Source: Terebella lapidaria (taxonomy: Eukaryota; Annelida; Polychaeta; Terebellida; Terebellidae). Taken from it: a DNA stretch of 64,000 nt. The notes beneath the pieces were generated by a model that was not told the origin of the DNA, searched no databases, and worked only from the letters and a program-made list of their open reading frames with translations. The stretch covers positions 24,039,950 through 24,103,949 of the forward strand of contig OX424569.1 in NCBI GenBank assembly GCA_949152475.1. The letters are read 5' to 3'. The stretch's first letter is position 1. Every line of letters starts with the position of its first letter. Below, piece by piece: positions 22,800 to 56,100 of this stretch. The position numbers and the translations under genes are program-made.

Positions 22800-25700
22800 T
22801 CCCACATGTAAACATAAATAACAAATGTATCAAACGCGATTCAAAGGTCACAGATTGCATCGAACTACGAACATGTTTTGCAATGAAAGAGTGTAATAAA
22901 ATGCATTTGTACATTATCATTTCGAAAACAGGCTTTGGTGCATTGTCCAGCAATATGATATGACAAAGTTATATAAATATGGCAACGTTCTGGGATATTC
23001 CCTATTGGTCACGATACAATAGTGCTGGCTTGCAGAGTAAGCCGAGTGAATGGCCAATCAATACATGGCAATGATATTCAAGGTCGCATTTGTTGCTCAT
23101 CTCGCTGCTTGTAATATTTTATACATGTACCGCAATGTGTAAGCAATTGTAAATTTCTGTCAGAATATACAATGCATGGAAGATTGTCAGTACATAGGGT
23201 TCAGTTACAGTTACAGGGCATTTTTCGTCGTCGTTATCAAGCTATCAATTCGCTGCACTTCCACATGAATGTTTAGCTGCGAACAATGTAGGTTACAGTA
23301 AATAATGTAATGTATGCATCAGTTTCTTGTACTCTTGAAAGCTGACAGCAAACACTAAGGATAGTCTATTTGCTGCGTATACGATATTGAAATCTAATAG
23401 AAATACCCGTACATGTGTACGAAGCAAAATGCAAAAGAAATGGGCCAAAAAACATAAATGTTCTACCATTTATGTTGAAATGTTGGTAATAACAATGAAA
23501 ACCACACGTATCTGATATGCATTCCACATGCAAATATGTGTATGTAGACTGATTTGTTTGACTTATTGACAATGTTCGGATTGCAAATGATCGAATGGAT
23601 ATCTCTTTGGCATAAACCTGGCTCACATTTGTCTTTTGTCCCGTTAAGAAACAATAAGAGGGCCGTTTTCATAAGGACTTCAGCATAAATGGGCGAATTT
23701 AGATTGGGGTAGGCCTGCTCGGTACGTTTGTTCTGAGAATAATGATACTTGTCTATAACTAAGACGTCGAATCAATACCAAGTGTCAAGAATTCCGAGCG
23801 AACAAAACAGGGTCCGTTATCCAACCTCATAGGCCTATACATGTAGTCCGTCTTTGTATGATATTATTTACCTATTCAACTTATAATGTAACCTAAAGGA
23901 AATATATACAAAGCTTCTAAACACAGATGGACCCCTTTTGCATGTATTACCATGGCAAATAATCATACATACTCATGTATCTCCGTTAACGTGCTTACCT
24001 TTTTTGTAGAAAAATCTACATTATAGACCCGTGCACCTTCACCATTTCATCAGTTTATCCACGACTGAACGCACCGTGCAGCGCTTACGACGCTTATCCA
24101 CAAATTAGGAAAGACACTGCACCTGTCGATAAGTTCATTGGTTTATTTACGAGAGGAACAAAATCCTGATCCACAACATCGCCACTGCGAGGCATTTACA
24201 CGACAGAATTCAACACACAAGGGTGTGAATAGCTACAGATCGATGGCTTTATGTATGTCTTCGTGTAAACTAGTATGCTAAATGTCCTATACATAACCAT
24301 ACATGCAGTATGATGTTCTGTCCTTGCGCAATCCAACCGTATCAAATACAGACACAGAAAGAATCCAAACGAGTCACGCATAATGGAGTTTTGAGTATAC
24401 TTAAGAAGACGAAAAGCATTGGTTCACTATTCAAATAGACACCTATATTCACACCAGGGTGTATGTAGAGACGGTGCAATGGTAGGACTATATATAAATA
24501 TTTCTTCATGGGGTACACCCTTTTTTCACTCAAAAATTGCCTCGCGCGCAAATGTCAGACATATTATTGAACTATAATATCGTGCGTATTACAGTAGCAC
24601 TTAGCTGTGTGTTGTATTATAATATTGATCGATAACAATCGTGTTGAATCATCTGTACAAGTTCCATCAGTACGTGTATCACATGGTAATATATCCAGGA
24701 TATCGATATTTTTGGTATATTACCACGCAAATGTGTAATAATAGAATTTGTTTAAAGTCAAGTTCAACACAAAAAATACCTCATATGATATTTGTACATA
24801 ACTTCGTTCAGGATGGTCGGATCAATTTGAAATTTTATTCGTTTGTATTGGGCATCAACCAAAATTTGTTCACCGAGATTCAGACTTCTATGATTGAAAA
24901 TTGAAAAAGTAGGGGATCTACCCCAACGTTATATGCTATTTATGACATCATATTCCCTTGTAGTGTATACGGCACATTACCATGTAAAAAAATACCGTAT
25001 TTCCTCGATTAAACGCCCGGCCGCTCATTTTTTTCGAGCACCTTTTACCCCCGGAGCTCATACGGGGCAGGCGCTCATTCGAGGCCCGGCGCTCATTGTT
25101 ATATCGTAAGTTATCAGAGCGCGAAAAATTTCGTGTCGAACAGACGTCGCCCATCGAAAGTATTCAGGCGAGAAATTGATGCACAGTTTTCACGCAAATT
25201 TGGATAATATATGAAACAACTGTGATACATGTATTGACGCTGATGTACATGTAGTGTGTGTACAAAGTCTCTTTCAGCGATTGTTCGTCATATTATTTCT
25301 TGCATATTTGATAATTACAAGACATTTTCTTGAAGTCGAATGCACTAGATTATGGTACACTACCGTAGTGATCGATGCAATCAGTTAAAGTGGGCTATAT
25401 TGCTATCGGTGGTGCAGAAGTGATCGACAACAATGGAAGCTAATAATATCAATTTTCTGCAGGATGTAAAAAAAGACAGCTGTACCTATCGAACTTATTA
25501 ATGAGCTAATTTTACACGTAAAACACGCTGTTGAACCCTAAAGACTGATACAAATAGGCCTAGTACGTGTGGCTGTGTCAAATACTATTCAAATACTACC
25601 CAGATTGTCTCAGATTGTCCCATTGGTGGCGGCTGGATTTGACAGTGGATGATACTAGTACATATAGAACGCAAATTAACAAGAAAGCACCATTAGTGGA

Positions 25701-28600
25701 ATTAGTGTTTATCCATTAATTTTGCCTTGTTGTAACGTAAATTAAAAAAATATGCAGTTTACTGGGAATGTCAACCATTGACACTCTCATGAGATTTGCT
25801 TGTACACAAATAGATCAGAACATGGTTTTAAAAACATTGTAATATGATACATTACTGTATTTTTGAAAAGTTGGAAGAGATTTTGTGACTTTCAAATCCA
25901 ATCTAGACATCGATTTGAAATGGGTGTGAAGCCCCCTTTAGTTACACAATAATCATTGTCCGTGTCTCCATACCAGACAAATACAAGCGGCGTGATCAAC
26001 AAGCTGAAGAAAGAAATGGAAGTTGTGAAAAACGAAACTCGTGACATTCCATTCATGCTGACCATGTGCTTGAATGTTCATGCTGAAAACCTGTTCATGA
26101 AATTCTTATTTTCTGTTCACTAAAACATCCAATCACCAAGAGCGAAGCCGTCCTTGAGTTGACACATCCGCCAAGACATACAGGGTATGTCAGGATAACA
26201 TAGATTGATTGGTAGAAGTATGAAAGGACCGAGGAAACTTTACTGCATGAGACCAGAAAGATGAAAGCTTTTGTCATGATAAATATTCCATGAAGCACAA
26301 AACCATTATTTCCTCAAATGGATTAGAACTTTATGAACTGTGAATTGGGCTGAAACGAAACAAGAAAGCGTGGAAATATTTACCATACCGGTGCACAGAC
26401 TCAATGAAATTTGACGACTTTATAAATAATTAGAAATAATAAATGATTGGCGACGACTTCTTAGCTAGTACAGTTACACAAACAAAGATGGACTGCACGG
26501 AATACAACGGGAGGAAAATGAGTACAGAAGGTCAAACAAGTGCCTTATAATGATGATGATGTTATGTTCAAGCGTAGCCTAGCGGACTGGATGAAGACAA
26601 CAGTGAGCCATGATTATGATAAAGTACGTATTTTATGGGTAAACTGTGATCGAGCAGGAACGCATAAAATACAGTAACTTGTACATAAAACACTAAGGCA
26701 TTCAATGAAAATAGAATGACTCGTGCAAGCAACAGACCTGGAAATTATTTTGCTCGGCAATGTAAGTGCACTTTACATGTCTGAACTCACATTCATATTC
26801 CCAGAATTTATGCACGAGGAGATCATTTATTATAGCGTGTAAATTTATACGTAGACCAATTCCCCGATACATATCGTTCAAAGTGGAAAAAACACAGGTT
26901 GATAGGTGGAAGACGAGTGAAATTTAAATGTATTTGTTCGAAATTTAAATAAACGACTTGGGGGTGTGTTGGGCCCACAAGTGTAAAAACTTTCACAAAT
27001 GTGAAAACTTTTCTTAATCAATAATCACCAAGAATTTTTTTTTTTCAAAAAATACCCAAAATTGTGAAAACGGTTCTTCTCAATTACCCTCAAATGTGAA
27101 ATATCTTCATAGCAGCTGTATGAGTCACATATATCTAAAAAAAACATTGAAATCGGCAGTTGTTTGATACGTTATCGGGCAATTATGATAATAGAGACGA
27201 TTAGGTAAAAATGCATCTCGCTCAAAATTGGTTGTAGAGGCAAAAGGAGCTAATTTTCAGACTTCATGAAGGAGTTTCAGCGGGTTTCACAGCAACTATC
27301 TACCATTCACGATGATTTTTACCCAAAACTCATGGTAAATGGTATTTTTCATGTGAAATCTTATGTTGCTATAGATTCTCAGATTTATGGATAATTCACA
27401 GTTTCGATGATACATGAATATTTACACTTCCAAATTATTAGCTAATCGAAGAATGTCAAATATTGCTCCAAAAGGTAGTTTGTCCCACAAACAAGCCGTC
27501 CCATAGCACAGAACTGTGGCATTTTGTAGGATGTTCCCCGCGATTCCTGAGGGGACGTGGCTCGTTTTTACATCTGTGGGTGACTTTTTCACATTAGTCA
27601 GTGAATGTGTTTTTGTGGGAGTTGACCTGTTGGAACTCAAAATATCCAAATTTGAATCTTCTGTGTTTGCAGACAATGTCGAAAATGTCAATACATGTCT
27701 TTGTGTTTTTGTTTTGTTTTGTTTTATTTTTGTATGTTCAAACTTCAATTCAAACTTAAACGCAGGATTATTAGAGCGTATTAGAGGGTCTATATTGGTG
27801 TTATTTGTACACTACAGTATCATCGAAAAAATGCTAACCAATTGGTCTGTATGGAATTCCAAGAGCGGATTCTGCCACTTCAAAATTCAAGATGACTTCA
27901 GGGTCCTCGTGTTTCGAAATGAAAACTGTTTTACACAGATTGCTTTTCTGGATGAATTTCAGATCCACACAGATATTAATAGTTAATAATACATAAATGA
28001 AATAGTTAAATGAATGAAATAGAATTGAATAGTTTCCGTAAAATGAAAGAGTGGATGTGATTGCGTACAGTGTGATTATTCTTTATAACTATTTGCTGGT
28101 ATGGATTCATATCAACTGTGCGTTGATGGCAAAGTGATATTTTCACCAGTTTTCCAAAGTGGTCTTGCTCATGTACGTATATTATATGTATACTGTACAT
28201 CAACATGGCTGAATTTTCCGCAACCATGTTAGCTGACATGGTAAAGTGTTGACTTCATGGTGAATATCGATATTTTAAGCTAGCACTCTGTATCATAGCA
28301 AACAAACCCAGATCATACTAGATAGCACAGTAACCTAATTGCCCTGGCACAACAATATATTGCAATGGATCAAGCCACGAGACAACACGGGCAAGGCTGG
28401 CACATGCTGCAACATTCTGCCCAGGGACTCATCCTCCATCCATACAATACCAGTAGTAAACCGTGATTAATTCGGATTTTCCGCTTATGCTGGCGTCGTA
28501 GATTTTCACGAGATTAGAAGGCTAACCACCTGGCAATTGATGGATATTGTACTGATGATCCGTATAGCTTACCTCAATGCACGTAAACAACTCTGTAACT
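22800..28600 (-). repeat. 5-kb repeat family R3, copy 1 (inverted orientation)
   Basis: Matches on the opposite strand to copies at 35.9-43.8 and 49.4-54.9 kb. Landmarks (family orientation, reading leftward) are TACATTGCCGAGCAAAAT (26.75 kb), the CATCCAAA...GAACAGAAAAT block (26.1 kb), GGTAGTATTTGAAT (25.6 kb), the TCTAGTGCATTCGACT region (25.35 kb), GTGGATAA...GCGCTGCACGGT (24.1 kb) and the start of the next unit at 23.0-22.8 kb. A part near 27.29-27.4 kb is in the opposite orientation to the rest, so the copy is a mosaic. No gene is visible. Confidence 0.7.
24985..25135 (+). repeat. Short GC-richer repeat (CCGTATTTCCTCGATTAAACG type)
   Basis: A distinct block in an AT-rich copy of R3. It begins ACCGTATTTCCTCGATTAAA and repeats the words GGCGCTCATT and CGCTCATT...CGAGG three times. 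Elements beginning with this kind of sequence occur as short interspersed repeats in many marine animals. No target duplication was identified. Confidence 0.4.
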
Positions 28601-31576
28601 CCAGAATGTTAGGGATATGAAGACGATGTTTCCAGTTATATATTGTCTATGATGTGCACTGCTCAACAGCCTTGTTTTTTCTGGCCATGCGTCGACAGCT
28701 AGATATGTATTTATAATTTCCGAGCTCTCACTGGCTCACATACATGCCTGCCTTGATTGGTTAGCTGTACTGGAATTCCGGCGCTCGAGGGCAGGGGGGG
28801 GTGCTATATAGGGCGTGATCGTAGGATGGCCAAGCGCTAGGACTGATTGGTCGATACGGCTACGATCCCCCCAGGCGTTTGATTTCAAATCGCTAGATTG
28901 CACTCTCCCAGAAATACATAATGTCTCTCGCTATGTATTTCTGTTTCCCCGTGATACACGATGAAACGTGGTTACGACTGTCCGAGGGTATTGGCCAACA
29001 GTGCCGCGATCAATACAACACGTTCTATATGATTATTTTGTATCCTAGTACTAAATGAACTTACCTGTTCTATCCCAGTCTCCAATAGCTCGCCATTGAT
29101 TCATGTGTTTCCATCATTCACCAGGTGCTTCTTTCGATTGGGTTGCCATTGGGTTCACCCTTCCTCGCGCCGTAAATGACCAATAAACAAACGTACACCA
29201 CTCGCAGTAGCCACCCCTGTTCAGCTGCCGGTGTCATGAGGTATCTCCGTCCTTCCGCATCATCCGCAAAAAACTACCATCGTGGCAGCGTCGCGCTGTC
29301 GTCTCCGACCCGAGCGAATATGAAAGCGTCCTTGATGGTTGTTTCTGCATTGGCCTACACTCTGATAACCGGGCCACTGGGTTTACTTCTCCGGTTCTAT
29401 AGACAGGCCACCGTTTATTGACGCACCGAGCAGGCATGCGAGCCCATAGCCTGGCGACTGGCTGCTGTCACAAAGATATACACCTCGCAATGCAGACCCG
29501 AGGAGTCCACATAATATAGCCATCGTCAAGTGAACGTTGACGTCCTGTTCCGTTAATAATCAGTATGGGCAAATGCATGTGGCCGAATCGTATTTATTTT
29601 CTCGGAAATACTCTAAATAGTTAACACTTGGAAGCTTGTTCGAACTACCCAGAGAAAATAGGAACATTTCAAAGGATGTCTCACGACCCGAAAAAAAAAT
29701 ATAATTTGTCAATACATTTATTTTTTTATTACAGACAGGTAAAAACGAACTGAGACAGTCGCTTTGTATGTTGTGATTGAGAAAAAAAACACACCTGCTG
29801 GGAGCGAGTGTAATTTTTCCGACCATTGGAAAGGATACTATCATGATATATAAACCGAGATAGTCGTAACATTTGTCTCGGTGACAAAACAGAAAGCGAT
29901 GAACATTCACATAACAAGTATCATTTTTACCTTAATCAATGTTCACAGTTCAAGGACTCGTCTGGGCGAGACAATGACAATCATGTATCTGGTGACGGAT
30001 CGATGCAATATAAGAGATATTTCGATATCAAACTCTGCCATGATGGTTTATTCAGGTGTCGTAGTGTGACGAATGTTACAGTGATGTTATCGCAGTAGTT
30101 CTCTTTGTGAGCAGTTTCTAGAGAAATGGGGTTAAAATTTCACCGAAATGAAACATTGCATGATGTTTATAGAAGTTAGTGCTTAGAATGAAGCGGGAAT
30201 TTAAAAAAAAAAGTGACGCTGTACATTTATCTTTCAACCTGTAAATACACGGCAAGTTCCAGGGGCTGTGTTTTTAAAGCAGCTTACTGAAGAAAAAAAT
30301 ACATTCACATTTTGTTTTCGCTTAGGATTTGACTTTTTCTCTGACCTCCTCACAACATTGGAATATAATTGAGTTTTGCCGAATAACCTCCGTTGCTGAT
30401 TAATTCGAAATCTACATTTGCCATTACTGAGATGTTATAATTAAGACAATAAGTTAGCGCCGTAGCTATTAAGTAATTAATATTTTATTTTACTAATTAC
30501 CTCAGCATCCCTACTTAACAGAAGCTTGGCCCTGTTTAGTACAATAATATTGCAAAGTCACCTCAGCAAAAGTATTTGCTGATTTCTAAATTAATTTTGT
30601 TGTGAGCAATAATAAACTTAACCAGTAAATTTCATAGTAAATTATTGACTAAAAGTGAATTATTCACTAAATTAGTCACTAAAAGTAAGTTTACTTAATC
30701 AGTAAATTTGATAGTAATTATTCACTAAAAGTTATCTGTTTTGCCAGAGTCGTCAGGTCCATACTCCTTTACACATCCTGTGTGCCATTTGTTTTCTGAA
30801 TAAGTGAAAACATTAAGTTTGATCATTTATAATCAGTTTTTCAGAAAAAAAATACAATGGGTTTTGTGTCTCGGTATTGCTCAACATGTAAGTTCGATGT
30901 TGTGCTGATTAAATAAATAGTTATAATAATAATGAAGCATAATTAAATACCACTATCCCTAAAGCGCTCACATGCCGTGTGTGTCAAAATGCCTAAGTTA
31001 ATGACTATTTGATAAAATTGCAAAATATGTCGCCAATCGGCCATTTTGTTTGCTATGGCATATGTTATAGTTTCGCCATAGCAGAATTCCACAGAGAAAA
31101 TTAACAAAGTTGGATGAAAATATACACGTGATAATCTCCACTGATATTCGTTCAGGGTATACATTCAGAAAAGGGCACCTTGTTGGGCTTTCCCGGTAAC
31201 CAGAGTGGTGTGCCACAAAGTCCAAACAAAAGCTATGGGCTCCATACCACCTTCACCTTCACGTGTGTTCTGTGCGCGTGTGTTCTGTGGACAATGAATA
31301 CCGGCTGAATTTTCATTGGACATCAGTATTCAAGCTACTGAAATTATTGGGGCATGTTAGGCTCATGTAAAATAACTTGAATGTTCATCACGCATCACGC
31401 ATTATCCAAAATGAGGATAGCCTACCTCATTATGACTAATAGTAATTTACTAGACTACTACACTGTTTGATTGTGTATCTACATTATAACATACATACAT
31501 AACGAAAGAATCGTTGTGTATTTCTGATCATCCACGATTAGGCAGGAGAAATACACATTCCTAATCCAGAATGGCA
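28600..31576. other. Gene-free centre between the inverted R3 arms, left part
   Basis: 28.75-29.55 kb is GC-richer, with G-runs, a TATA-like CTATATAGGG at about 28,803 and a short hairpin (AGAAATACATA...TATGTATTTCT) at 28.91-28.94 kb. The open frames on both strands there show no domain. 29.6-31.5 kb is AT-rich, with a quasi-periodic AGTAAATT/ACTAAAAGT stretch at 30.6-30.75 kb. Nothing else is recognised. Confidence 0.35.
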
Positions 31577-35280: not shown

Positions 35281-37099
35281 GAATTTCACATATTCAAAAT
35301 ATAATGTCTGTTGATTTCATGTAGCGATATGGAATACGTCAAATTGCTTGAAATGCCCGAAATACATGTGTCAAAACGGCTCGGACTGTACAATATAAGT
35401 ATCAATCTATCACAAACAATACAGTCAAATTTTGATGATACCAATAACAAACGTAAACTACAACATTTTGCAAAGAAACAAAGCAGTTGGCCATTGTATA
35501 CAAAACACTTGTAGATACATGCAAGTATTATGGACACATAGCGGTCATACATGTATATAGCGAATCTTTTGATAAGCTTGAGTTTGACCTCCCTGACCTT
35601 GATAAACCTGGGTAAATATCAAGGTCAAGTCCAAATTCAAATGTGTAGTTTGACCTATATACTGCATATTAGATGTTTGCAGATAGAGCTAGGGTCTGTA
35701 TTATGAACGTACGGTATAGGAAGACATAATTGCGTGTCTGGTAGTCTTGCAGTTTACTTCAGATGACCTTGAGTGATGAATCCGAAGCAATCATCTGCCC
35801 TGAAATGTGTGAAATGAACTCTGCATACGAATTGGCTGTAGATGAGGCTTCGGTTTGTATTACGAACATATCGGAAGTCATTGCGAATCTTTCGGTAGTT
35901 TTGAAGTTGACCTCAGACGGCCTTGAGTATCAGGGTTGTCTGCGTGTATTGTGGTAAGCAATAGGGATAAGTAATACAACACCTCTTGATTGCCAGGTGG
36001 TTAGCCTTCTAATCTCGTGAAAATCTACGACGCCAGCACAAGCGGAAAATCCGAATTTATCACGTTTTACTACTGGTATTGTATGGACTGAGGGTGAGTC
36101 CCAGGCCAGAATGTTGCAGCCTGTGCCAGCCTTGCCCGTGTTGTCTCGTGGCTCGATCCACTGCTGTATATTGATGTAGCAGGAAAATTAAGTTACTGTA
36201 CTTTCTGATGAAATTATCTGAGTCTGCTTGTTATGATACACGGTGCATAAAAATATCAAAATTTGCTTTGGAGTGAAAATTTTACCATGTCGGCTGAAGT
36301 GTTTGCGCAATATTCACTTTGAAATAGATATATCGGGATATTTGTCCTGGAAATTTTTACAGTTTGATCTGAGTGATCCGCTCGTGCATATATCCTGGGG
36401 ATATAGACTTGAGCTCAGACGTTTATAGGTGCATACATGTATACATTGCCGAGCAAAATCACCAGATCCGTTGCTTGCATGAGTCATTCTTTTTTCCATT
36501 GAATTACTGTTTCATGTACAATTTATACGGTAAGAAGTTTACTCAGGATTTACATATATTTTATATCTACATTACCTTCATTTTATGATTTCATATGATA
36601 CCGCACGATTAATAAATGATATTACTGCATTTTATACTTTTCTAATCGGTCAGAGCTTACCCAAAAATAAGTACTCGTGTACTTAGTCATCATCATGTGT
36701 ATTGTATTGTATTGTGTCGATCCATTACGCTCCACTTTTTTGCTTACTTCCACAAACAGTCGTCGCTAATCACGAAAAATGGATATTGGTTTCGTTATGT
36801 ATATGAAAGCACTATTAGAACCGAACAAAATGATCTTCACAGTATATTGATATCATGATTCCTTCCAAAGTTATGACACTTTAAACATGTACATATTTAC
36901 ATAATCTGACAACAGAATCTGACATCTAATTAATGTGCAAATTAATGTGCAAATGTGTGCCGTCATTGACAGACAGGTTTTTAATCAGGCATTTTCAAAT
37001 GGAATGATGAGACCGTTTGTATCCATATTTGTTCACCAAAACCCATTTTTATGGTTTTCAGTTCGAATAATCAGTGATTTCATGAAATGCGTGGTTGTC

Positions 37100-37530
37100 A
37101 TCCATGGCAACCAATGGTCTGGCTGGGCCCTTAGCAACCATGGTTGTTAAGGTCAACATATAATTTTAAAAAAAAAAGATATATATACATGTATGAAACC
37201 ATTACAAACAGTAGAGTAATAACAATATATTGAAGAATATATCATCAAAGTGGCTGGACACAACCCTTAGCAACAGATAGAGGTCTGGGAATCCAGCAGT
37301 AGTAGCATCCATTAACTTCCAATGACTCTAAACGTCAGTGGTTTCTCAGGCCTGTTTCGGTTGCTAAGGTGTGTTTTTTTAACATTTTGTTGATCAATTC
37401 CACAAAATATTGTTACTACGCTGTTATCTAAATTGGTTTGATACTTTTATATCGTGTTTTAACTTGAATACCAGCCTTAGCAACCTGGTTGCTAAGCGCC
37501 AAATCAGCCCATTGGTTGCCATGGCAACCA
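37100..37530. promoter_or_regulatory. Cluster of X-box (RFX-type) GTTGCCATGGCAAC-like sites
   Basis: A perfect palindromic X-box, GTTGCCATGGCAAC, lies at 37515-37528 and fits GTHNYYATRRNAAC. Related words nearby include CCATGGCAACCAATGG (about 37,102), TTAGCAACCATGGTTGTTAA (37131-37150), CTTAGCAAC (37,263), GGTTGCTAAGG (37,358) and CTTAGCAACCTGGTTGCTAAG (about 37,474). The recurrence suggests a degenerate repeat rather than a dedicated enhancer. Confidence 0.35.
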
Positions 37531-41714: not shown

Positions 41715-41799
41715 ATACGGCTATCGATCTGTAGCTATTCACACCAGATAGTGTAATATCAACGAGAGGTCGCACTCTCACAAAAATGCGTGTCGAGCA

Positions 41800-42073
41800 C
41801 TTCTAACTCGAGAAACTCGGGGTGACTTCAATGCTGGGAGGCCGCTCCCTCGCCTGCGAAGGTCTTATTGTTTGCCACCCCCTCGCCTGCGAAGGTGCTA
41901 TTATTATCATTTTTGCGGGCGCTGCTGTCCGTTAACGAAACAATACACCCATGTTATTCACGCAATCGATGACATCAAATAACGTTTTCGGCTACCCAAC
42001 ACAAGACGCGGGCCTCGAATGAAACTGTTCTTCATTCGACGCCAGCGTCTTTCATTCGACGCCCGCGTCTTGT
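41800..42073. repeat. Short direct and inverted repeats
   Basis: CCCTCGCCTGCGAAGGT occurs twice (about 41,849 and 41,880). At 42003-42073 AAGACGCGGGCCTCGAATGA pairs with TCATTCGACGCCCGCGTCTT as a hairpin, with an extra half-copy between the arms. Possibly terminal pieces of small transposons. Confidence 0.5.
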
Positions 42074-42299
42074 AGAACTAGTCCAAACGACTGGGTTTTT
42101 TTTATTTGTAACTGATACCTTATGATCATGATGATAGATACGTTAAAATAGTGCGTCGGAGGGAGTGTGCTATGACCAGAGTGAGAATCAGAGCAATCGG
42201 AACAGTCAAACACAAAATGCAAAATTGAGTCGTCCGTCAAATGCTACACAGGTTTGCTGTCCTTATCAGGTGTTTCAAGTTCTAGTCAGACTATGAAAA

Positions 42300-42495
42300 T
42301 GATAATAATAGTAATAACGATGGTTTGCCAGGCGGTGTGGCGGTTTGAAGGCCCTCCTTGGGTCATTGGACGCCTTTCAGAAATTGTCTGCCCTCGCCAA
42401 GGCTCGGGCAGACAATGACTGTCAGGCGTCCAATGGACCAAGTCGGGCCTTCAAACCGCCACACCGCCTGGCAAACCATCGTTATTGTTATATTG
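42300..42495. mobile_element. Near-perfect palindrome (foldback MITE)
   Basis: AATAACGATGGTTTGCCAGG at left pairs with CCTGGCAAACCATCGTTATT at right. Matching continues through GGCGGTGTGGCGGTTTGAAGG, ATTGGACGCCT and TTGTCTGCCC to a short centre near 42,400. Arms are about 80 bp with few mismatches. It is GC-richer than its surroundings. Confidence 0.75.
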
Positions 42496-42500
42496 TCCTT

Positions 42501-42632
42501 GCGGTCCATGTAGCACAGCTTACTATTTTCTCTAAATTCAATGAAGATTAAAAATGTGCCAGACGGATTAAATATGGTATACATTCAGTGGGTGAGTAGT
42601 ATTAACAGAGTAAGGTGCGCTACTTGGGCCGT
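42501..42632 (+). mobile_element. MITE family M1, diverged copy
   Basis: Right end TGCGCTACTTGGGCC; core AATTCAATGAAGATTAAAAA...CCAGACGGATTAAATATGG...GAGTAGTATTAA. The left terminal repeat is degraded (GCGGTCCATGTAGCACAG). It sits immediately next to the foldback at 42300-42495. Confidence 0.6.
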
Positions 42633-43462
42633 TTTTGCTTGCACATAGGAACATATAGAGAGTTCCGCCTCTTGTTATATTAAACTCTTTGTTCACACCC
42701 TGATGTGTTTGAATGCCTCGCGGTGGCGATGTAAATAATCCACTTAACGCCTCAATAGGTGCATTTCTTTCCCACTTTGTGGATAACTTATGTCGTCAGT
42801 TCAGCACGGTTCGTTCAGTCATGGATTAATTGATTAAATGATGAAATTATTTATGCCTAAGTGGAGACGATGAGGAGACGTTGCCCGAAAAGGCTGGAAT
42901 TTGGCCAATGGCCAGTCACCCTCCGAACGCGGGCCAATTTATTTTCTTGCGGCGACCGATGGAAAAACTGACATCAGTAGTGAATCGCTACCACGCCTAC
43001 CGGCGATCGACCAGAGTCCCTTCTGATGCCCACCAGGTGCCGAGGGGATCGACCAATGTGCATAGCTCACCAGGCGATCACCACAGGATATCCTGCTCGG
43101 CGCCGATGAATATCTAGAAGGTGCCCTTCACATAATCGGCTGATTTGTGCATATCACGCGGTCACCGAGCAGGTATCAATAGGGTATCATGCGGACTTCG
43201 GTAGGACATCGCTGGTTGGTCAGTCGTTGAAAATCTTGAAATTTGAATGGACACGGTGAAGACGCGCGATCGTAGATTAATATAGCGGTCACCGGTGGAG
43301 AATGCCTGGGGTTTCATGACCACTTGAAAAACATGGGAAAGATGCCTGACAAACTATCACCGGGGGCCGGTACATCGGTTAATACCACCAATGTCCCCAC
43401 ATCGGCAAGCGACCTGTGCAACTGTGACTTAGGCATAACGTGCATGAGTTTATAACGTGTAG

Positions 43463-43589
43463 GGGCCCAAGTATCATATCCTGCGCCTTCCTCTATATTC
43501 AATAAGGATTAAAAAGGTGACAGACGGATTAAATGGCAGTCATTTAGTGGACGAGTAGTATTAAGGCACAGTGTACGATACTTGGGCCC
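43463..43589 (+). mobile_element. MITE family M1, best-preserved copy (127 bp)
   Basis: Terminal inverted repeats GGGCCCAAGTATCATA / TACGATACTTGGGCCC enclose TCAATAAGGATTAAAAAGG. It is flanked by a perfect GTGTAG duplication (43457-43462 and 43590-43595). No coding capacity. Confidence 0.85.
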
Positions 43590-45013
43590 GTGTAGGTAAG
43601 CACGTCAACCGAAATACACGAGTATTTATGATTATTTATGATGGTAACAAGGAGGCTTCAGCCGTGTATAAAGCACTGGATATATTGATTTCAGGTTATT
43701 GTGAGGTGAATGGGTAAAAAAATAGCATACACAGACTGTCTGCTATCAAAAGAACGTCGAACCAATATACACGTACACATTTTGTGAACTCAACATATAG
43801 TGTATGGGCCAGAGGGGGTGGTCGGTACCACTTGGGGGGGCAAATGCCCACTATATTTTTTTGAAAGCTATATATCCCTAGATCACGTTTTAGCATGATA
43901 GCCCTCTGGATCTGGTAGCTTAATGGCGTTATCAGGCCAAACGTGGACCCACCCCCCTTCAGTTTTTGTATGTTTGAAAATCTACATTTTGGACAAAAAC
44001 TACAATGTAGGGTCCCAATAAATCAACCTATCATCACAAAACCCATGAGAAATATTGGCAGATATGCAATGTGTTTGGAATAAATGTATTTGAAGTTTTT
44101 TAAAATTTAAAATGGCCGCCAAAATCCAAGATGGCCGCCAAAAATCGTCAATTTACTTCGAAATACTCAACCCTAAAATATGGTATACAAAATAAAACTT
44201 CTTTGCTCTATGTGATCACATTCCCCTCTGGTGCAGCACTTTGTCCATAGTTAGTCAAACATGGCTGCCCAAATTGATATGACATTCACATTTACGTTGA
44301 AATTAGAAAACAAAAATGAATGCGTGCAAATCGACGTTTTGGACAAAAACTACAATGTAGGGTTCCAATAAATCAACCTATCATCACAAAACCCGTAAGT
44401 AATATTGGCAAATATACAATGTGTTTGGAATAAATGTATTTAAAGTTTTTTAAAATTCAAAATGGCCGCCAAAATCCAAAATGGCCACCAAAAATCGTCA
44501 ATTTACTTCGAAATACTCTACACTAAAATATGGTATACAAAATAAAACTTCTTTGCTCTATGTGATCACATTCCCCTCTGGTGCAGCACTTTATCTATAG
44601 TAAGTCAAACATGGCTGCCAAAATTGATATAACATTCACATTTAAGTTGAAATTTGAAAACAAAATTGAATGTGTGCAAAGTATTACAAATCATGAATCG
44701 GTCACACTTTTTTTTTGCAATTTGGCACATCATTCATGTTATTAGCCACTAGTTTGGAATTTGCATGTCAAAATTGGTAGTAGCTCATAGATATACACTT
44801 TTCAAAAATTCACAACAAGCAACTTCCTGTAGCTGTTAAAATGTGCAGATGTGAACATCCAAGATGGCCGCTGCCGAAGTTGGGAATGATGCATTTCAGA
44901 TCTTGTGGATAGATATAAACTTGTATAACATCACGTTTTTGCTTTGGCGTGAATAATATGCCTGCCAACTCAAAAGTTCCCTCTAAATAATAACCTGCCT
45001 GTTTGGATGCCCA

Positions 45014-47700
45014 TGAGTGGAGTGAGCCCTGTTCCAGGTGGCAATGAAGCAATCCTGCCCATTGTTATAAATAATTCACCCCGTGGCCTCTGCAAAATCA
45101 ACGTGTATCTTCTGTTTTGGAGGAACCACTCTTCAGAATGATTTGATGATGTCCTGGACATTCTACAAACCATCATAGACAAAACCATGCCTCAATATAA
45201 CATCATCATCATTGGCGAATTCAATGTATCGTTATTAGAGGACAGAAACAGTAGAGATCAAAGTTACAGAAGTGGTGTAAAACAATGGCATGTTTCCAAC
45301 AAATGACTATCTCAGAGAGCAGGTTCAAGTGATGAGTTCATCTCTGCCACGATTCAGCCCATAGAAAACTTGGACAGATGTGATCGTAGCTTATTATGCC
45401 AGACCATCCTTGAACTCCTTCCTACTATCGATGAGGAACCCTGAAAGGCCTTTTCCGATACTTGTATATCTCAGCTCCCAAAAAAGCAGTGCAAATACAC
45501 CTGCAATGTGCAGTCCCAAAGGCAGTGGCTGCCAACTGAGTAGCCCTCTGTGCCTGGCGTGACGGGTTAATACCTGAATGTAGCTCGGGAGCACTACAGG
45601 AGGATCGTCTCCTTGCAAAGAAGCTACTCTGTCAATCTCAACGACAAACAAATACCGAGAACTGCTCAAAGTTGTACAAAGACGTCACTCAAGAGACACA
45701 AAGCTACTCTAAACCTATCCAGAAACATCGAGCAACTCCCTCCTCAGCTGCTCCAGAACTGCTAGTATTGGGAAATGGAAAACTAATCACAAACAGGAAT
45801 ACAATCCGTGAAGAATGGTCAAAGCACTTTAGTAATTTGACCACTCGAACCACAAGCTCCGACTGAATACTATCTTTGAAGCCTTCGTTAGACATTAAAC
45901 TATTGGGCTGGATGGCCACAAACAATCTCATCACATTCATTCCCATTGACCAATGAGAAGTTGCAAAGGTCCCATATGCACTCACAAATAGGAAAGAGCT
46001 GAACCCTATCCTGCAACATAGTAACCTCCTGTACATCATCATACCGTACTGGCTTTAATAGTGGCACGGTGAGCCAAAGCAGTAGCCCTCCTGCAGCAGC
46101 ACGTGCAAAAAAGAGGTCAAATTCAAGAGAATCACTGAATTATATACCCATAGAATTCAATCCCCTTTATGATTCAAATAACATAAATGTATAGAATGAA
46201 ACACTCTAATAGTTTATTTGAAACATATCAAGTGAATTACAAGGTTATAAAAATCGAACATTTTTGGGGGAAAAGGGGGGGGGGGTGCTCTACTATTAGG
46301 GCGCCTGCCAACATTAGGACCAATACAGTATTCATAGCAAGAGGGATCTGTCGAGAAAACCTTATTGCTGCCTACATCATCATAGAACATAAAAAGGAAA
46401 GAATAAGCTGAGCTCAATTAACTTCAGGGCATCACCATAACGCCGATCGTGGCGAAGGCCCCCGAGCACATGCTGTTTGCCCTTCCGGACTCATCCAGGC
46501 ATCTCTGCAATACATTTTTACGAGAGCCTTGTCCCAGCCCTGGCTTCCCTTACCATTACAGCAGCATAGCAGATGCACCACTGTGTGTTGCGACACTGGA
46601 TGTCCAGAAGACATTTGATGTGGTGGACTACAGCTATCTGCTGAGGAAGCTATATTCTTCCAGATGGTCACATCCAGCTGGATCTATATGTCGAACATTC
46701 TCGACATATAGAAGCAGAGGTCCGCATCAAAATCCAGGGTAAACTCGATGAACCCTTCACCATCAATCAGGGTGCCGGACAAGGCAGAATCATGTTTACA
46801 TAAAACTACAAGACCATTCAGTATTTTTACTTCTTTGGCATAGCTCTCAATGATCTTCATCTGGGTTTGGAGATTGACAATATCTTTGGACATCAGATCT
46901 ATATCGTCTGCATATGACGCTAGTTGTATATGTAGCTGATCCACATAACACCCCGTCAAATCCATGTGTATCAAATACGAGATTGAGGCCTCAGTTCAAC
47001 TCATGATTAACAACGAAGATCTGCGAATTAGATTCATTGACCCGTCTCGGAATGGACTGCTACTCCAAATGCTTTACCTTTGATCTCTCATCTCTCATCC
47101 CGCCAGAAGAACCTCATACTCACTGATGAGTACCAGCTAGCATGGATGGAATGGCATCTCACAAAAGATCACAAAAGATATTTACAGGACATACATACGT
47201 GCTTCGAAGGTTTACCTATGGACTGGAGGTTGTTGTCTTATAAACGAAGCAGATCGAGGGACGGGAGAAACATCATCGAACCACATCATGAGAACTTCAA
47301 TCATTACCGCCAGGGACTATCAAGTGTGCCGTCAAGTGTGTGACTCTGTTGGATCCCGCCGCTAGAGATAATCTTGGTCCTGAACATGGCTACTTTACTC
47401 AATATGGTGGACAAGAACCCTGACGCACCACTAGCTGTCATTGAGCGATACCAGTTCACCAGAAAGAATGAGAAGTCGTCATCGGGGTTTATTTACTGTG
47501 CCAAGCCGCTAGCTTAGTATGGGATGAATGCTGTGCAAATCATGGAGGGAAAACTGAACAAAGAGGAGATACGCAGAACAATTATTGAAAATGAACGCCC
47601 GAAGGTAGCAGCTTGTGCCAAATCCAGTCTGCGTTTCCTCAACATGAAGCTTGCTCGCTATTCAAGTAGGATCCGGTATGGGACACTTTTGACGTAAGGT
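45014..47700 (+). pseudogene. Decayed LINE fragments captured inside element F
   Basis: Plus-strand pieces: an endonuclease remnant near 45,050-45,260 (INVYLLFW, IIIIGEFNVSLLEDR), a linker near 45,780-45,860 (NTIREEWSKHFSNL), a reverse-transcriptase block near 46,590-46,650 (LDVQKTFDVVDYSYLLRKL) and a following FTINQGAGQG block near 46,750-46,790. Many stops and frame changes interrupt it. The YADD block that should follow reads on the minus strand (46,980-46,800, SYADDIDLMSKDI), showing an internal inversion. Sequence from 47,000 to 47,700 is not recognised. Confidence 0.65.
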
Positions 47701-48059
47701 TTTGACCAAGGCTTCTCATTGGAGGTTACACACTTCAGTCCAACAAAGCTGTCTTCAATCAATACCAAGTGAACAAATATTATTCTTTGAAATTGGTCAT
47801 TTGTTCAGATGTAGAGATGTCATTCTGTTTAGTACCCCCTCATTATAAACAGCAGCACAGAATCACCGGAAGACATCCATGAATGATTGAGTGTAAATGT
47901 GATATAGCCAGGACTCATCCAGACAAACCTAATTAATCATAATCTTAGAAACAAAAAAGGGACAGAGCTGGTCTTGAGGAAATCTCCAGATGCTTTGTGT
48001 TCAGCTTGCACTGTAGGAGGCTAAACTTACTCAACGCCCCCTGAACTAAGAGGAGGCAC

Positions 48060-48545
48060 GACTACAAACAACAACATGGCTGCTACCCGTAAATGACTCT
48101 TACCTGATTGAACAATCGATTTGTTTTGTTAATGTAAATCAAAACATGAAAACCCCACAATTAAAATGCCAAATACCATCTTTACAGTTTTATGGCAGCC
48201 AAGCAAAACCAACTCTGGAACGAGTATAATATGCAGTATACTAAAAAGAAGTGACGTTCCATATGGAAATGATATCAAACCAAAGTGACACTCATTTTCC
48301 AAGATCTAAAATATTTGAACAACACAATTTTGATATGTTTCTGAAAATCATGCTAATTATTCTGTGTTGAAAAAGGATGATTGCAGACCAGCCATATAAG
48401 CTTGTTTGTAGTACATTTTTATGTTCATCAGCAGATTTCTCACGCCATAAAACCCATGATTCATCATTAGATAAAAGTATTCGAGATATTTCAATTTTGA
48501 GACGAGTCATTTTCGGGTAGCAGCCATGTTGGATTTCCACTCATG
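48060..48545. mobile_element. Inner foldback inside element F
   Basis: CAACATGGCTGCTACCCG at about 48,073 is the inverse of CGGGTAGCAGCCATGTTG at about 48,516. Further inverse matches follow inward (ATGACTC / GAGTCAT). It appears to be a separate small element at the inner edge of F's right arm. Confidence 0.5.
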
Positions 48546-49416
48546 GGCATCCAAGCAGACAGGTAATTATTTGGAATGAACTATTGAGCTGATATGCATA
48601 CAATGCACGCCCAATCACCTACAAAAAGTTATATTACACAAGTTTATATCCATTCACAAGAATTGCGATGCAACATATCCAATTTCGGCTGCTGCCATTT
48701 TGGATGTTCACATCTGTGCATCATCACAGCTACAGGTTATTGTTGTGACATCTTGAACAGTGTATATCTATGTGCTACTATACTTACCAAATTCAACATC
48801 CAAATTCCAAACCAGTAGCTAATAACGTGCCAAATTGCAAAAAAAAGTGTGACCGATTCATGAATTGTAATGCTCTGCACGCATTAAATTTTGTTTTCTA
48901 ATTTCAATGTAAATGTGATTGTCATATTATTATTGGCAGCCATATTTGACTTTCAATAGACAAAATGCTGCACCAGAGGGGAATGTGATCACTTACAGCA
49001 AAGAAGTTTTGTTTTGTATACCATATTTTAGTGTTGAGTATTTCGAAGTAATTTGACGATTTTTGGCGGCCATCTTGGATTTTGGCGGCCATTTTGAATT
49101 TTAAAAAACTTTAAATACATTTATTCCAAACACATTGCATATTTGCCAATATTTCTCATGGGTTTTGTGATGATAGGTTGATTTATTGGAACCCTACATT
49201 TTAGTTTTTGTCCAAAATGTAGATTTTCAAACATACACAAATTGAAGGGGGGTGGGTCCACGTTTGGCCAGGTACCGCCCTTAAGCTACCAGATCCAGAG
49301 GGCTATCATGCAGAAATGTGCTCTAGGGATATATAGCTTTCAAAAAAATATAGTGGGCATTTGCCCCCCCAAGTGGTACCAATGACCCTAATTTGGTGTG
49401 TCCGGCCCATACACTA

Positions 49417-52400
49417 ATACATTCATTCAAACAATATTGTATCGAGATCCATAATCAATAGGGGATATCCCACAGCTTTGTTATAATAGGCCTATATATT
49501 GCAACTATAATAGGAATTGGTGGAGAATGCACGAAAGCATGTTTTCAAAATAATAAAGTACATATATATGCATTTTATTACACTCTTCTATTCAAAACAA
49601 AGTCATGCTCGTAGTTAGTTGCATCTGTGACCTTTTGATCGCATGTGACACATTTGTTGCTGGCGCATGTGGGAAAGTGCTTTTTTAATGGCCTGGATCT
49701 TTCATGTTAAATTATTCACTATCGGAAGAACATACTTGGAAATAATTGTTAGGTGAGTCAATGTGTTGATCGGTGGTGCAATTCGATTAAAATATTGAGT
49801 GCTCAATCTAATTGATAATCCACTTAGTGAATACCTCATTGTCTGCTATTCATCTGCGAGATCAATAATGAATTCCATATTTTACAAAATGTATATGTAC
49901 TTAAAAGTTTGGACGTATACGTGCTTTAGGTATATGTAAACACATTTAGTATTGACAGGTTTCATTCTCTCGAGTGGTGGGAAGCAGCTTTGAAACGTCG
50001 TCTATCTAGAATACTTCCGAGAAAAATAGATACGAATGAGCCGATGGAAACATGTATGCGACTAGTACATGTAGATGTATTCAACCATGCTGATTATTAA
50101 CAGAAGTGGGCGTCACAACGATCACTTGGTATAACATGTGAAAGAAATGAGATTGTAACCTAAATCAGCGACATTATTGAACTCTCTCCAAGAATGATGC
50201 CATCAAATTGCGACACAAATATCTGAAATATCACAGCAACCATCTACCACTCACGATCATATTTACCCAAAACTCATGTTAAATGGTATTTCTCATGTTA
50301 AATCTTATATTGTTATAGGTTTTCAGATTTGTGAGTAATTGAAAAAAAATCGCTTGCACATTTGTGGCTCAAGTTTTTATTCACATTTGTGGGCGGATTT
50401 TTTTGCCTATCCACATTGTAAGTAGTTAACAAGAACATTTTCAGGATTGTGTGTAATCGTTTTTAGATGTGTGATCGACAAAGTTTGTTTTCCAGTATAG
50501 GACTACTAGTACTCGCGCATCCAAATTTTTAAACACATCCATTTGAACTTCAATCTGAATGTAGTGATTTATGACGAATGTGCCCATTTACATAATATTA
50601 ATGTCTTTCAAAACTCATCCGCGTCTTCCAACTATTGCTTGTTTTTTTATTTCACTTTGAACTAGATGTATAAACTAGATGTTTATATACTGTCCTAATA
50701 ATTTCCTTGTGCACAAATCCTTGGAATGTAAGTGTGAATTCAGACATAAATATGGCATATACATTGCCGAGCAAAATTATATCCAGTTCTGTTACTTGCA
50801 TGGACTAATCTTTTTTTTTGTTCTTGAACGTCTTACTGTTTAAAGTCCAATTATAATAGTTCACATGTACATAGTATCTATATGCATGTATATTATACGT
50901 TCCTGATTGATGACAGCTCACCCATTAACGTGTACGTCGACGTTGTCATGGCTCAGTATTGTCTCTGTCTATTCCGCTAGCTTATATAACACACATCAGA
51001 TGCTTGTTTAACTCGACTTTTTTCCTTACTCCCATGCAGTAAGCTTTCGTTTGTGTACAAGCTAATACGTCATAGTTAATCAGTTATATTTTTAATTATT
51101 TACAATTTCGTCAAATTTCATCGAGTCTATTTGCATTGGCGGGGGAATACGTGCACTTGTTTCATTTCGGCCTAATCCATATGCACATGATGCAGGTCAG
51201 TAGATTCTAACCCATTGGGAGAACTGACGGACTTAATTATGCAAAATGAAATATTCACCTCCACAAAAGCTTTCATCATTCTGGTCCAATGCAGTATAGT
51301 TTCAACGGTCCTTCCATATATACGGTGTTGTTCGACTCAAGGACGGCTTCGCTCTTGGTGATTAGATGTTTTAGCTAAGTATTTCATGAACAGGCTTTCA
51401 TTATGAACATTCAAACACACGGCCAGCACAAGTGGAATAAATGCAATACCCAAGTACAATGTATCCGAGTGAACAAAACCAGTCCGTTTTCAAATTTCGA
51501 AGTTCGGTGTCAGGCAAAATCGATTATGGAACTTTATGAACCCCCATATATGGCCATAGGGGTGTGAAATCAGGTGCTCCCGAAAGAATGAACATTTCCT
51601 GCCCCACATGTGGCACCTCTCATGAAATCCAAAAAAATATATACACGTGTATTATGCAAACAGGCCATGCTGCATACTACTCACAGATTTGGTTCACTTA
51701 TCAACTGGATCGTGATGACGTCCATGACATTTCTTGAACGCAGCTATTAGTCTTGATTAGAAATTAAAAAATTATGTTTCTCTATTAGAAAGACTTATCC
51801 TTGTCGCAGCAGTTTAGAGAGCGAAGCCCTCATATTTGCAACTAGCTCTGGAATAGCGTATAAGTTGTGAGACAACTTATTGTCACGAGTTCCGTTCTTA
51901 CAATTTCCACTTCTTTCTTCAACTTGTTGAACACGGAAGGATCCTTGCCTTGCTTGCTTTCTAAATATCAAGACAAAGATATGGCCTATCGTGGAAGTTC
52001 AATGGAGCTTCATATTCATTTACATTCAGTGTTCAGACCAGGCATGGGTTAATTTAATTTTCAAATTTTTAACTGATTAATTTAATTAACTCAATTAATT
52101 TATTAGATTGCATCAACTATACATTTGATAGTTCACATTGTTAGCGGTAGCCGAACAAAATTCCCCCCCCCCCCCCCACCCTCACACACATACAATAAGG
52201 GCTTCCGTAAAAAATGGACCCCCTCCCCTCAAAACAAAAGCCCATCCTGTAGCTCATCTGGGTGATATAATCTTAGAATCTCAAACCCGGATTCAAAGGC
52301 AGAAAAGTCAGTGATCATAGACAATGGTTAATTGGCCAAGGTTGTCAGGCCAAATGCCAGTACTAACAGTCAGTGGTGTGGTTGTGTAATCTAGATCTGG

Positions 52401-54880
52401 ACAGTATATTGAACTAACATGAGAGATCCTGTAGAGATGCTAGAGATTCCATCATAAAGCATCACACAAACATCTGAACGATATGGAAAAGGGTATATAT
52501 AATTGAAGTGGCCGGGACATCGGGTTCATCTCTTATAAGTTTACTACATATATTTGAAGTTCAGTATGTGCATATGTATTTTCCAAGCCTTAAGCAAATA
52601 TATGGGGGAACTTTTTTTTTATGCCTTTATTCAAATTGTTCAATAGATCGTCTATTGAAAAACATTGGAACTGTGGTGAGACATACGAAACAAAAACACA
52701 TAAAATATGCAATCAAGATATGACACAGACATGTTTTTCAAAAACTTCGCATTTTCAGAATGTTATGCGCAGATACTGAACAAAAACTATAGCATTTACG
52801 GGACTGGTAGATATAGCACATGGATATATATATATTTGTATTTCGATCCAAAACTGCCCTTTTATCGGAAATATTATTGGCTGTATTGGTGGTAATAGAT
52901 TGTTACTTACAATCATACTAAAAAAGCAGGGACACATAGGGCATACATACATTACATACTTTTTAAGGTTGTTAATCCGCATTATTTTTAACGAGGGAAC
53001 TATTACTCAGAACTTTCAGTAATGCAGAAAGTAATTGTTAATTTAAATAATTAATGTGTCATGTAATTGTAATTTAATTAATTAACTTGATGAAGCGTGT
53101 TAATTGTAATTTAATTCAATTGCATGATTTATGATTTAATTGTAATTTAATTATTTAAAAATCCAAGTTAATTGACCCATGCCTGGTTCAGAATGACTTC
53201 GAAAGTCGCAAGAATGTTCCCTCGGTGATTGAATATTGAACAGGAAATCTCTTCAAACTCTTCAAAAATATAGTATATCATTTTGTAATGTTTTAGAACA
53301 CATTATATTGTATACAAATAAATCTCGTGGATAAACACTAATTCTTCAAATGGTGCTTGTATATGCTATAGTCATTTACATGTGTTTAGTATCATCCGCT
53401 GTGAATTCAGCACTCACAAATGAGACAATCTGGGTAGTATTTGAATAATTTACGTATTCCATCGAGGCACAGCCACATGTAATATGTATACCTGTCCTTG
53501 GGGCTAAACAGATAGCGAAGTTTACGTGTAAAATTAACTAATTAATATTTACTCGTCAGTTCGATAGGTACAGCTGTCTGTGTACCAGATCCTCTAGACA
53601 TTCGAAGAGAATCAGCTTCTATTGTTGTCGATTATTCCCGCATCACCACTAGCACTATAACCCATTTTATATGATTACATCGATCACTGTCAAGTTTCCC
53701 TTCAGCCCCTGGACGGTCGCGTACCATATCTAGTGCATTCGACTCCGAGAAAATCGATCCCTTGATATTATCAATTTACAGGAGAAAAACATGATGAACA
53801 TCAGCTGACAGAGGCGAAAATCTGTGTATTATTATCCATGAAAATATATGTGTGGCATGTGCATATGCTAGACAGTGAATATCATAACACTTTATGCGTG
53901 TTCTACATGTCAAACGTATCGCCTAGTTATTTAACCATTTCGTGCGTTCACTGATAGAATTGAACAGATGATTTATAGCATCACTGTTATCGATCTTATT
54001 GATCGATATAAGAATACTATAGACAACACAGGTCTACTGTGATATGAACGATATTAGAGTTCTACAAAATGTGTGTCATGGCCATATTTAATCACCACTC
54101 CGCTAAAAGGTTGTACCCCATAAAGAGAAGGCCTACCATTGCATCGTCTGATTTTTCTCCACATATACACCTTGGTGTGTAGATAGATAGGTGTCTATTT
54201 GTATAGTGAACCTACATGCTTTGGAAATTTATATAATTGTTCTAAATAACCTATTGAACTCATCAACAGGTGCAGTGTCTTGCCTACATGTAGTTTGTGG
54301 ATAACTCATGTCGTCAGCGCTGCACGGTTCGTCCAGTCATGGCTTAATTGATTTAATAATGAAATGGTGAACATGTATGGGCCTATAATGTAGATTGTTG
54401 TATAGCTAAGCACGTCAACTGAAATACATGAGTATGTATGACTATTCACCATGGTAATAAAATGGGTCCATCTGTGTGCATGTATGCAAGCACTATATAT
54501 TTATTTATTTTACGTTAGAGTGTAAGTTGAATAGGTACAAAATAACATACAAAGACATTCACTCCCCGCTTTCAAGAGCACGTGGACAGAATACATAATA
54601 AATATATATTGTAAAGTACATCATTCACAGTTTAAACATTGATAGTGCAGCATTCAAATACATGTAAACAACTACTTGAACGAAATAAGCCCATGGTAAC
54701 TATACCGATAACTGACCGATGTGCACTAACATACTAACATACTAGGCCTATATACATTCTGACAGAAGTAAACAATTGTTAACATGTATAAAATATTACA
54801 AGAGGTAAGATGAGCAGCAATTGTGACCTGGGATATCATTGCCAGTTATTGATTGCAGCTTCACTCGGTTTTCACTGCAG
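49417..54880 (+). repeat. 5-kb repeat family R3, copy 3 (direct)
   Basis: Follows element F directly. Landmarks are GGGGATATCCCACAG (49.46 kb), TACATTGCCGAGCAAAAT (50.76 kb), GGGAGAACTGACGGAC (51.22 kb), ACAATCTGGGTAGTATTTGA (53.42 kb), TCTAGTGCATTCGACTCC (53.73 kb), GTGGATAACTCATGTCGTCA (54.3 kb) and AAGCACGTCAACTGAAATAC (54.4 kb). At 54,880 the start landmark (GATAGGGGGTATCCCAGCAC) recurs, so the next unit begins head to tail. No gene is visible. Confidence 0.75.
52039..53185. mobile_element. hAT-like non-autonomous TIR element H (1,147 bp)
   Basis: Ends CAGGCATGGGTTAATTTAAT / AGTTAATTGACCCATGCCTG. Flanks GTTCAGAC (52031-52038) and GTTCAGAA (53186-53193) form an 8-bp target duplication with one change, as hAT transposases make. 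The matching place in R3 copy 2 (AATGTCTAGATTGAATCC) is uninterrupted. The subterminal regions are strongly AT-rich (AATTTAATTAA words). There is a C-tract at 52,162. No transposase frame. Confidence 0.8.
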
Positions 54881-56100
54881 GCAAGGACAATAATGTGTCA
54901 TGATCGATAGGGGGTATCCCAGCACATGGTCATATTATTCTGTACCTATAGCAGGAATTGATTAAGAATACAAGAAAGCCTGTTTTCGAAATAATAATGT
55001 ATAAATACATTTTCTTTATTGCAGAATATAATATGACCTTTGTGACCTTTGAATCGCATATGATACATTTTTTCGTTGACGCATGTGGGAAAGTGTGGTT
55101 TAATGACCTAGATTTTTTACGTTCAATTATGCACTATCGGATGAACGCAATTGGAAAATAACTGTTAGGAGTCAATGTGTCGATCCATGGTGCCAATCAA
55201 TTAAATTTTGAAGTGTTCAATTTAACTTTTGCGAAATATCCACAACCGTCTGTCATTCATTATGATTGTAAGTATCCATCTATTACCACCAATTCAGTGA
55301 TGATGATGCCAATAACAAACGTAAAATACAACATTGTGGAATAGAAACAAAACCGGACCAAATAGTTTATCCAAAGACACACTGGCGTCATCAGAGGCAG
55401 AGAGTGTGTTAAATGTAGTTGTTTCTACTGTACACCTGACGGAATTAGTACACAAATGTCCAACAAGCTATAAAAATAATTATATTTACTCAAAATTCAC
55501 ATTAAATTGCATTTTTCATGTTAAATGTTATATGTTATGAAATTTCCAATGTGTGGATAATTGGCGAAAATTATTTTCACATTTGTGTGTAAATATCTCA
55601 CATTTTTTTGTAATTGAAAAAATTTTGTTTTTTCATGTTTATGAATTTTCACATTTGTGGATCCAACATACGCCCAACTCGCGTATTCAAACTTTCGAAC
55701 AAATCCATTTGAACTTCAATATGAATGTAGTTAATTTATGCACCCATTACATAACATTAATGTCCACCCGTATACAACCTATTACCTTGCATTTTCTACT
55801 TTGAAGTAGATGTATCGGGATATTGGTTTTCATAGATTTACATAATGTCCTAAATTATATTCTCGAGCATAAATCCTAGGAATATAAATGTGAGTACAGA
55901 CATGTGAAGTATATACATTGCCGAGCAAAATCATTTCCAGCTCTGTTGCTTTGCATGAGTAATTTTTTTCGTTGAATGGCTCACTGTTTTATGTAAATAT
56001 TATATTAGCAGTTTCTGCAGGATATAGTTTCATGCTTTGATATGATACGATATAGTTTAAATGGTAATAATGTACTTTATACGTTTTGGATTGATGGCAG
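54880..56100 (+). repeat. 5-kb repeat family R3, copy 4 (first quarter only)
   Basis: Repeats the start of copy 3: GATAGGGGGTATCCCAG, GTGACCTTTGAATCGCATATGA (compare GTGACCTTTTGATCGCATGTGA at 49.63 kb), GTCAATGTGTCGATCCATGGTG, then ACTTCAATATGAATGTAGTTA and TACATTGCCGAGCAAAATC at 55.91 kb. Similarity is lost near 56.1 kb. Confidence 0.7.

Follow-up and report, generated by a model that had tools for sequence, protein, structure and literature searches.

A probable ancient low-copy segmental duplication with one inverted unit in the genome of Terebella lapidaria

Introduction

What kind of sequence makes up a genomic domain in which a unit of about 5 kb recurs in both orientations? This question is raised by a stretch of 64,000 bp from Terebella lapidaria (hereafter the window; C16:24039950-24103949 in an assembly of 761.6 Mb and 438 contigs), for which a sequence-only reading had proposed either a macrosatellite or a large non-autonomous element. 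Macrosatellites of the D4Z4/DXZ4 type consist of many homogenised head-to-tail copies, while segmental duplications are usually catalogued when they are at least 90% identical over at least 1 kb. At the level of titles, a literature search whose terms did not include the species returned nothing on this locus.

Results and Discussion

Arrangement of the Repeat Units

We compared the window with itself on both strands and the copies with each other, once with the strand fixed to the expected sense and once on both strands. These comparisons gave collinear chains rather than merely scattered short matches, and they define a unit of about 5 kb that is present in three copies and a partial fourth one (Table 1). 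Read in the direction of copies 2 and 3, the blocks of the unit (the letters are our own) follow each other in the order K-A-B-C-D-E-F-G-H-I-J. Copies 2, 3, and 4 lie head to tail and copy 1 is turned round, just as the sequence-only reading had described. Three of the four landmarks quoted in that reading were searched for as exact words, and all of them were found in the expected copies and strands: TACATTGCCGAGC at 36442, 50760, and 55914 (+) and at 26752 (-), GGGTAGTATTTGAAT at 40869 and 53432 (+) and at 25587 (-), and TCTAGTGCATTCGACT at 41115 and 53729 (+) and at 25334 (-). At the TACATTGCCGAGC landmark, all four copies share an identical word of 18 bases.

The limits of two copies had to be redrawn. 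Copy 1 extends beyond the limits first given to it, to about 21.4 kb on the left and about 29.7 kb on the right, and the tail of copy 2 is found at 49.43-49.94 kb, beyond a 5.6-kb element; this displaced end aligns with positions 23024-22745 and 21670-21387 of copy 1 and with 54899-55225 of copy 3. Copies 1 and 2 had also been taken for the arms of a palindrome. Its 7.3-kb centre is recovered if one measures from block A, for which an alignment was obtained between copies 1 and 2 alone (28604-28210 and 35922-36316; 81% identity over 398 columns), but the arms are not near-identical. At an identity of 73%, palindromic behaviour of the arms is now improbable.

A match in opposite sense between 50231-50340 and 27287-27396 overlaps a dispersed short repeat and was therefore not read as an inversion inside the unit. 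Counted over 264 kb, there are 29 chains of at least four blocks, a figure that says little on rarity because dispersed repeats, as well as an open frame of 5,927 codons with repetitive sequence (see below), contribute to it.

Table 1. Repeat copies and interrupting sequences, in positions of the window.
Feature	Position	Strand	Basis or remark
Copy 1, inverted	21387-29672	-	self-comparison, copy comparisons, joint alignment
Copy 1 blocks, first half	29672-29527, 28604-28210, 27114-26641, 26412-25267	-	alignments
Copy 1 blocks, second half	24743-24413, 24150-23845, 23342-22745, 21670-21387	-	alignments
Copy 2, main part	35396-43796	+	self-comparison, copy comparisons, joint alignment
Copy 2 blocks	35396-35482, 35922-36552, 39026-40155, 40858-41520, 42731-42847, 43590-43796	+	alignments
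Interrupting sequence in copy 2	36690-39010		genome search, Pfam
Dispersed element in copy 2	40153-40856		ends AGGGC..GCCCT, AT flanks on both sides
Dispersed element of 5.6 kb, long inverted repeats	43800-49414		TA flanks on both sides
Copy 2 end (I/J), displaced by the 5.6-kb insertion	49432-49938	+	copy comparisons
Copy 3	49952-55225	+	copy comparisons, joint alignment
Short dispersed repeat near copy 3 start	50226-50492		overlaps opposite-sense match to 27287-27396
Dispersed element in copy 3	52038-53186		ends CCAGGCATGG/CCATGCCTGG
Copy 4, unit start only	55269-56118	+	copy comparisons, joint alignment

Confinement to One Locus

Seven queries that cover most of the unit were run against the whole assembly and yielded no dispersed copies. 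All genome matches lay within the window for queries 53420-54208 (four matches), 39640-40155 (eight), 54243-55240 (six), and 28210-28604 (two), while query 25600-26930 gave nine matches in the window and a tenth one on another contig (C7:14407289-14407491). Among the 40 of 621 candidates scored for query 36000-37000, its first 317 bases matched only copy 1 besides themselves, and query 49730-50600 had, outside its bases 497-763, only local matches among the 40 of 57 candidates that were scored. The search skips very common words; it found local copies down to 64% identity. Those parts of the domain that were seen to recur throughout the genome are the sequences interrupting the copies.

The match on the other contig belongs to an orphan piece of about 215 bp (C7:14407289-14407503) that is 77% identical to copy 1. 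Used as a query, this piece matched nothing in the genome beyond itself and copies 1 and 3. The piece of the unit that is also present as this orphan is overlapped in copy 2 by an array (39237-39726) of tandem repeats that are each about 122 bp long and 97.6-99.2% alike.

In the 100 kb on either side, no further copy of the unit was found by blastn, which returned seven short matches of 78-362 columns that we read as repeat pieces and not as unit copies, nor by three sequence profiles, whose matches outside the known places, the orphan aside, had E-values of 0.044 or weaker. Taken together, these data strongly indicate that the unit is confined to its home locus apart from a single orphan; it therefore fits neither of the identities first proposed for it, being no high-copy macrosatellite and no dispersed non-autonomous element. 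The array resembles a macrosatellite in its multi-kb unit and its head-to-tail copies but differs from it in comprising three copies and a fragment at about 75% identity, one of them inverted, with at most local homogenisation. With a large non-autonomous transposon it shares the multi-kb unit lacking a coding signature; the unit was, however, not found dispersed, and no transposon ends were recognised.

One might still regard the array as the remnant of a large mobile element or a macrosatellite of old age, the other copies of which were lost or have diverged too far to be found, and the orphan would fit such a history. We hold this to be very improbable, since no other copy turned up genome-wide at a sensitivity that sufficed for local copies of 64% identity and since the copy comparisons revealed no recognisable terminal repeats or target duplications around the unit, whose ends are blurred by decay.

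Dispersed Elements That Interrupt the Copies

The site of the element in copy 2 at 40153-40856 is empty and intact in copies 1 and 3, and the family of this element occurs in at least 39 other places at 92-95% identity (40 of 707 candidates scored). The element in copy 3 at 52038-53186 is flanked by a target duplication of 6-7 bp (TTCAGA), copies 1 and 2 both have an empty site there, and its sequence recurs genome-wide with at least 77 matches (40 of 251 candidates scored). A hAT-like label considered for the latter was dropped because its target duplication is not 7-8 bp long. Since the corresponding sites in the sister copies are empty, the array is older than both insertions. Most likely, it also predates the insertion of the 5.6-kb element, which sits near the end of copy 2 and splits block H from block I.

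Among the 80 listed matches to the end sequence of this 5.6-kb element (40 of 170 candidates scored) are 12 opposite-facing pairs elsewhere in the genome that span 3.9-7.4 kb. The left arm of the element carries a tandem duplication of 364 bp, and its interior contains short frames resembling reverse transcriptase, with a weak RVT_1 match (46687-46995, -; E 0.014) that stays below the cut-off. It may be a case in which long inverted repeats and a reverse transcriptase occur in one element.

Within the interruption of copy 2 at 36690-39010, positions 36769-37000 (bases 770-1001 of query 36000-37000) are found in at least 38 other places (40 of 621 candidates scored). An open reading frame in the same interruption (37383-38357), which we take to resemble the C-terminal part of a LINE polymerase, matched no Pfam family. 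Query 49730-50600 had at least 50 matches (40 of 57 candidates scored), 45 of which lie elsewhere in the genome; these 45 all fall within its bases 497-763, the short repeat near the start of copy 3.

Coding Tests

Gene families typically form local tandem copies, and the units could accordingly be seen as a degenerate family of protein genes with small exons. In a codon-similarity test on 141 ungapped runs from five copy pairs, 15 runs had p<0.05 (about 7 expected) and two had p<0.01, an excess of about twofold in the direction of such a family. Against it, multiples of three make up 74 of the 284 indels of up to 30 bp, and the substitutions have no three-base periodicity (p = 0.86, 0.77, and 0.65). 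The three copies contain 149 ATG-started open reading frames of at least 20 codons, and two starts are common to all three. From one of these, unlike peptides of 32, 29, and 26 amino acids are read. The other, in minus sense in block E, yields similar short peptides (23, 42, and 31 amino acids) with an in-frame gap of 24 bp in copy 1, as a gene family might; its stops, however, differ among the copies, and its differences at codon positions 1, 2, and 3 number 5, 4, and 3 between copies 1 and 2 (76 sites), 6, 5, and 4 between copies 1 and 3 (76 sites), and 3, 2, and 1 between copies 2 and 3 (100 sites). These differences lack a third-position bias, contrary to what protein constraint would produce.

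Ten stop-free frames from the region had no Pfam match above the curated cut-off. Three weak matches (E 0.045, 0.11, and 0.13), one of them, in copy 1, to the piRNA factor Maelstrom, are all below this cut-off and were taken as chance. A coding frame at the 18-base word shared by all four copies was likewise discarded, the surrounding frame being shifted or broken between copies. The unit thus carries no coding signature, and the conserved reading frame that marks a tandem family of protein genes was not found; we consider descent from such a family highly improbable. As far as these tests reach, the earlier statement on the absence of an encoded protein is upheld for the unit.

Divergence Between the Copies

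In the joint alignment, copies 1 and 2 are 73.3% identical (3,212 columns), copies 1 and 3 71.4% (3,284 columns), and copies 2 and 3 70.2% (2,761 columns). Copy 4 is 61, 58, and 65% identical to copies 1, 2, and 3 over 791, 558, and 837 columns, values that include poorly aligned stretches. After inspection of the joint alignment, we picked 1,797 well-aligned columns from the 2,602 in which all three copies are present. In these, identities are 76.3, 75.3, and 76.9% and Kimura two-parameter (K2P) distances are 0.287, 0.303, and 0.281 for pairs 1-2, 1-3, and 2-3. Copies 1-3 are thus about equally distant from each other (K2P 0.28-0.30).

Such similarity is well above chance. The best match in 100 first-order Markov simulations of both regions reached at most 35.4 bits, whereas the real pair has 28 matches above this value, which amount to 7,513 aligned columns, run in the sense of the unit in 26 of the 28 cases, and may in a few cases be dispersed repeats rather than the unit.

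Copies 2 and 3 are 88% identical in alignment columns 3200-3600, where the other pairs stand at 80 and 78%. Because this exceeds the overall identity of about 77%, a tract of about 330 bp was probably homogenised between these two copies by gene conversion. A test for conversion clusters on the 2,602 three-way columns was extreme for pairs 1-2 and 2-3 (0 of 2,000 permutations each) and less so for pair 1-3 (16 of 2,000), but it takes in the poorly aligned columns at the left end, and only the tract of copies 2 and 3 was retained as a suggestion.

RNA Tests and the Question of Constraint

Rfam returned nothing for the region, either at the gathering cut-off or at E-values up to 1. A tRNA scan with a program that uses the bacterial code likewise gave no support for reading the unit as RNA genes. 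When folding of copies 1-3 was scanned over alignment columns 1900-5450, z was below -3 in 12 of 450 windows, and at no position was this so in all three copies (best mean z, -2.1).

Invariant sites are clustered in the 1,797 well-aligned columns, their variance being about twice that of permutations (0 of 2,000 as high). Several runs of 14-24 columns are identical across the three copies, among them two runs of 24 columns; the longest run in permutations had a median of 16, a 95% limit of 22, and a maximum of 34. This clustering leaves room for constrained blocks, but gene conversion or alignment error could cause it as well.

These invariant runs, and the retention of three alignable copies despite their age, are what one would expect of tandem noncoding RNA genes or regulatory units (an lncRNA or an enhancer array) kept by selection, with the conserved blocks as their working parts. 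We judge this explanation to be unlikely: most 100-column bins of the well-aligned part are at about 70-85% identity, no Rfam family was recognised, and no fold was common to the three copies in the columns scanned. Quite unlikely, too, is a more specific proposal in which the units would form a lineage-specific noncoding locus, an RNA or regulatory array upstream of an SLC10-like gene, under patchy constraint and with the similarity of its copies maintained by occasional gene conversion. The pattern of divergence points instead to mostly neutral decay.

Origin and Age of the Array

The explanation that we favour, with a probability of roughly 0.8, is an ancient low-copy segmental duplication at a single locus, in tandem and with one inversion, followed by mostly neutral decay. 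Like low-copy intrachromosomal segmental duplications, the array has few copies at one locus, an otherwise unique unit with at least two long collinear copies and one orphan of about 215 bp elsewhere, and later insertions of elements. It differs from the catalogued ones in being far more diverged (about 25%); with 75-77% identity in well-aligned columns it falls below the usual 90%, a threshold that would overlook it, and by segmental duplication we mean here an older duplication of the same kind and not the catalogue class.

The standard route to such arrays combines an inversion with tandem duplication, the latter through unequal exchange or template switching. The starting point would have been about 5 kb of single-copy intergenic DNA that lay upstream of the SLC10-like gene. 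Its tandem duplication, with one unit ending up inverted, would account for the observed order, orientation, and confinement of the copies; the duplications probably came about through unequal exchange or a switch of replication template, and the inversion may have occurred independently or in the course of a duplication-inversion. The copies have since diverged to about 75% identity, with the 330-bp tract of copies 2 and 3 probably converted, and dispersed elements later entered individual copies, as is shown by target duplications and, in two cases, by empty sister sites. Which route was taken at this locus cannot be told because the junctions have decayed. According to PMC3449122, non-allelic recombination leads to duplications and deletions between directly oriented paralogues and to inversions between inverted ones.

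Age and neutrality are judged here from within-genome data alone. The neutral rate assumed for marine invertebrates is a few times 1e-9 per site per year, and the distances between the copies would at this rate mean tens of millions of years.

The locus illustrates that collinearity can still reveal a duplication whose identity is far lower than the usual cut-off, and that insertions with empty sister sites can place a duplication in relative order; otherwise, its history is an ordinary one for a genome. If the invariant blocks proved to be constrained in relatives, the array would be a duplicated noncoding locus that has been kept in several copies.

Genomic Neighbourhood

Positions 9995-10729 (-) encode part of a sodium/bile acid symporter (Pfam SBF, E 4.5e-11). 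An open reading frame at 16831-17562 (-) had no Pfam family and is presumably the N-terminal part of this SLC10-like symporter; if so, about 4 kb separate the gene from the repeat, which lies upstream of it. Positions 11305-12112 hold tandem repeats of roughly 134 bp each, a length estimated from offsets, and this array recurs on the contig that carries the orphan. About 66-84 kb to the right of the window lies the single repetitive open frame of 5,927 codons mentioned above (130202-147982 in coordinates extended from the window), and about 15 kb to the right is a gene for a linker histone H1 (L016:5256-5918, -; Pfam E 8.2e-22).
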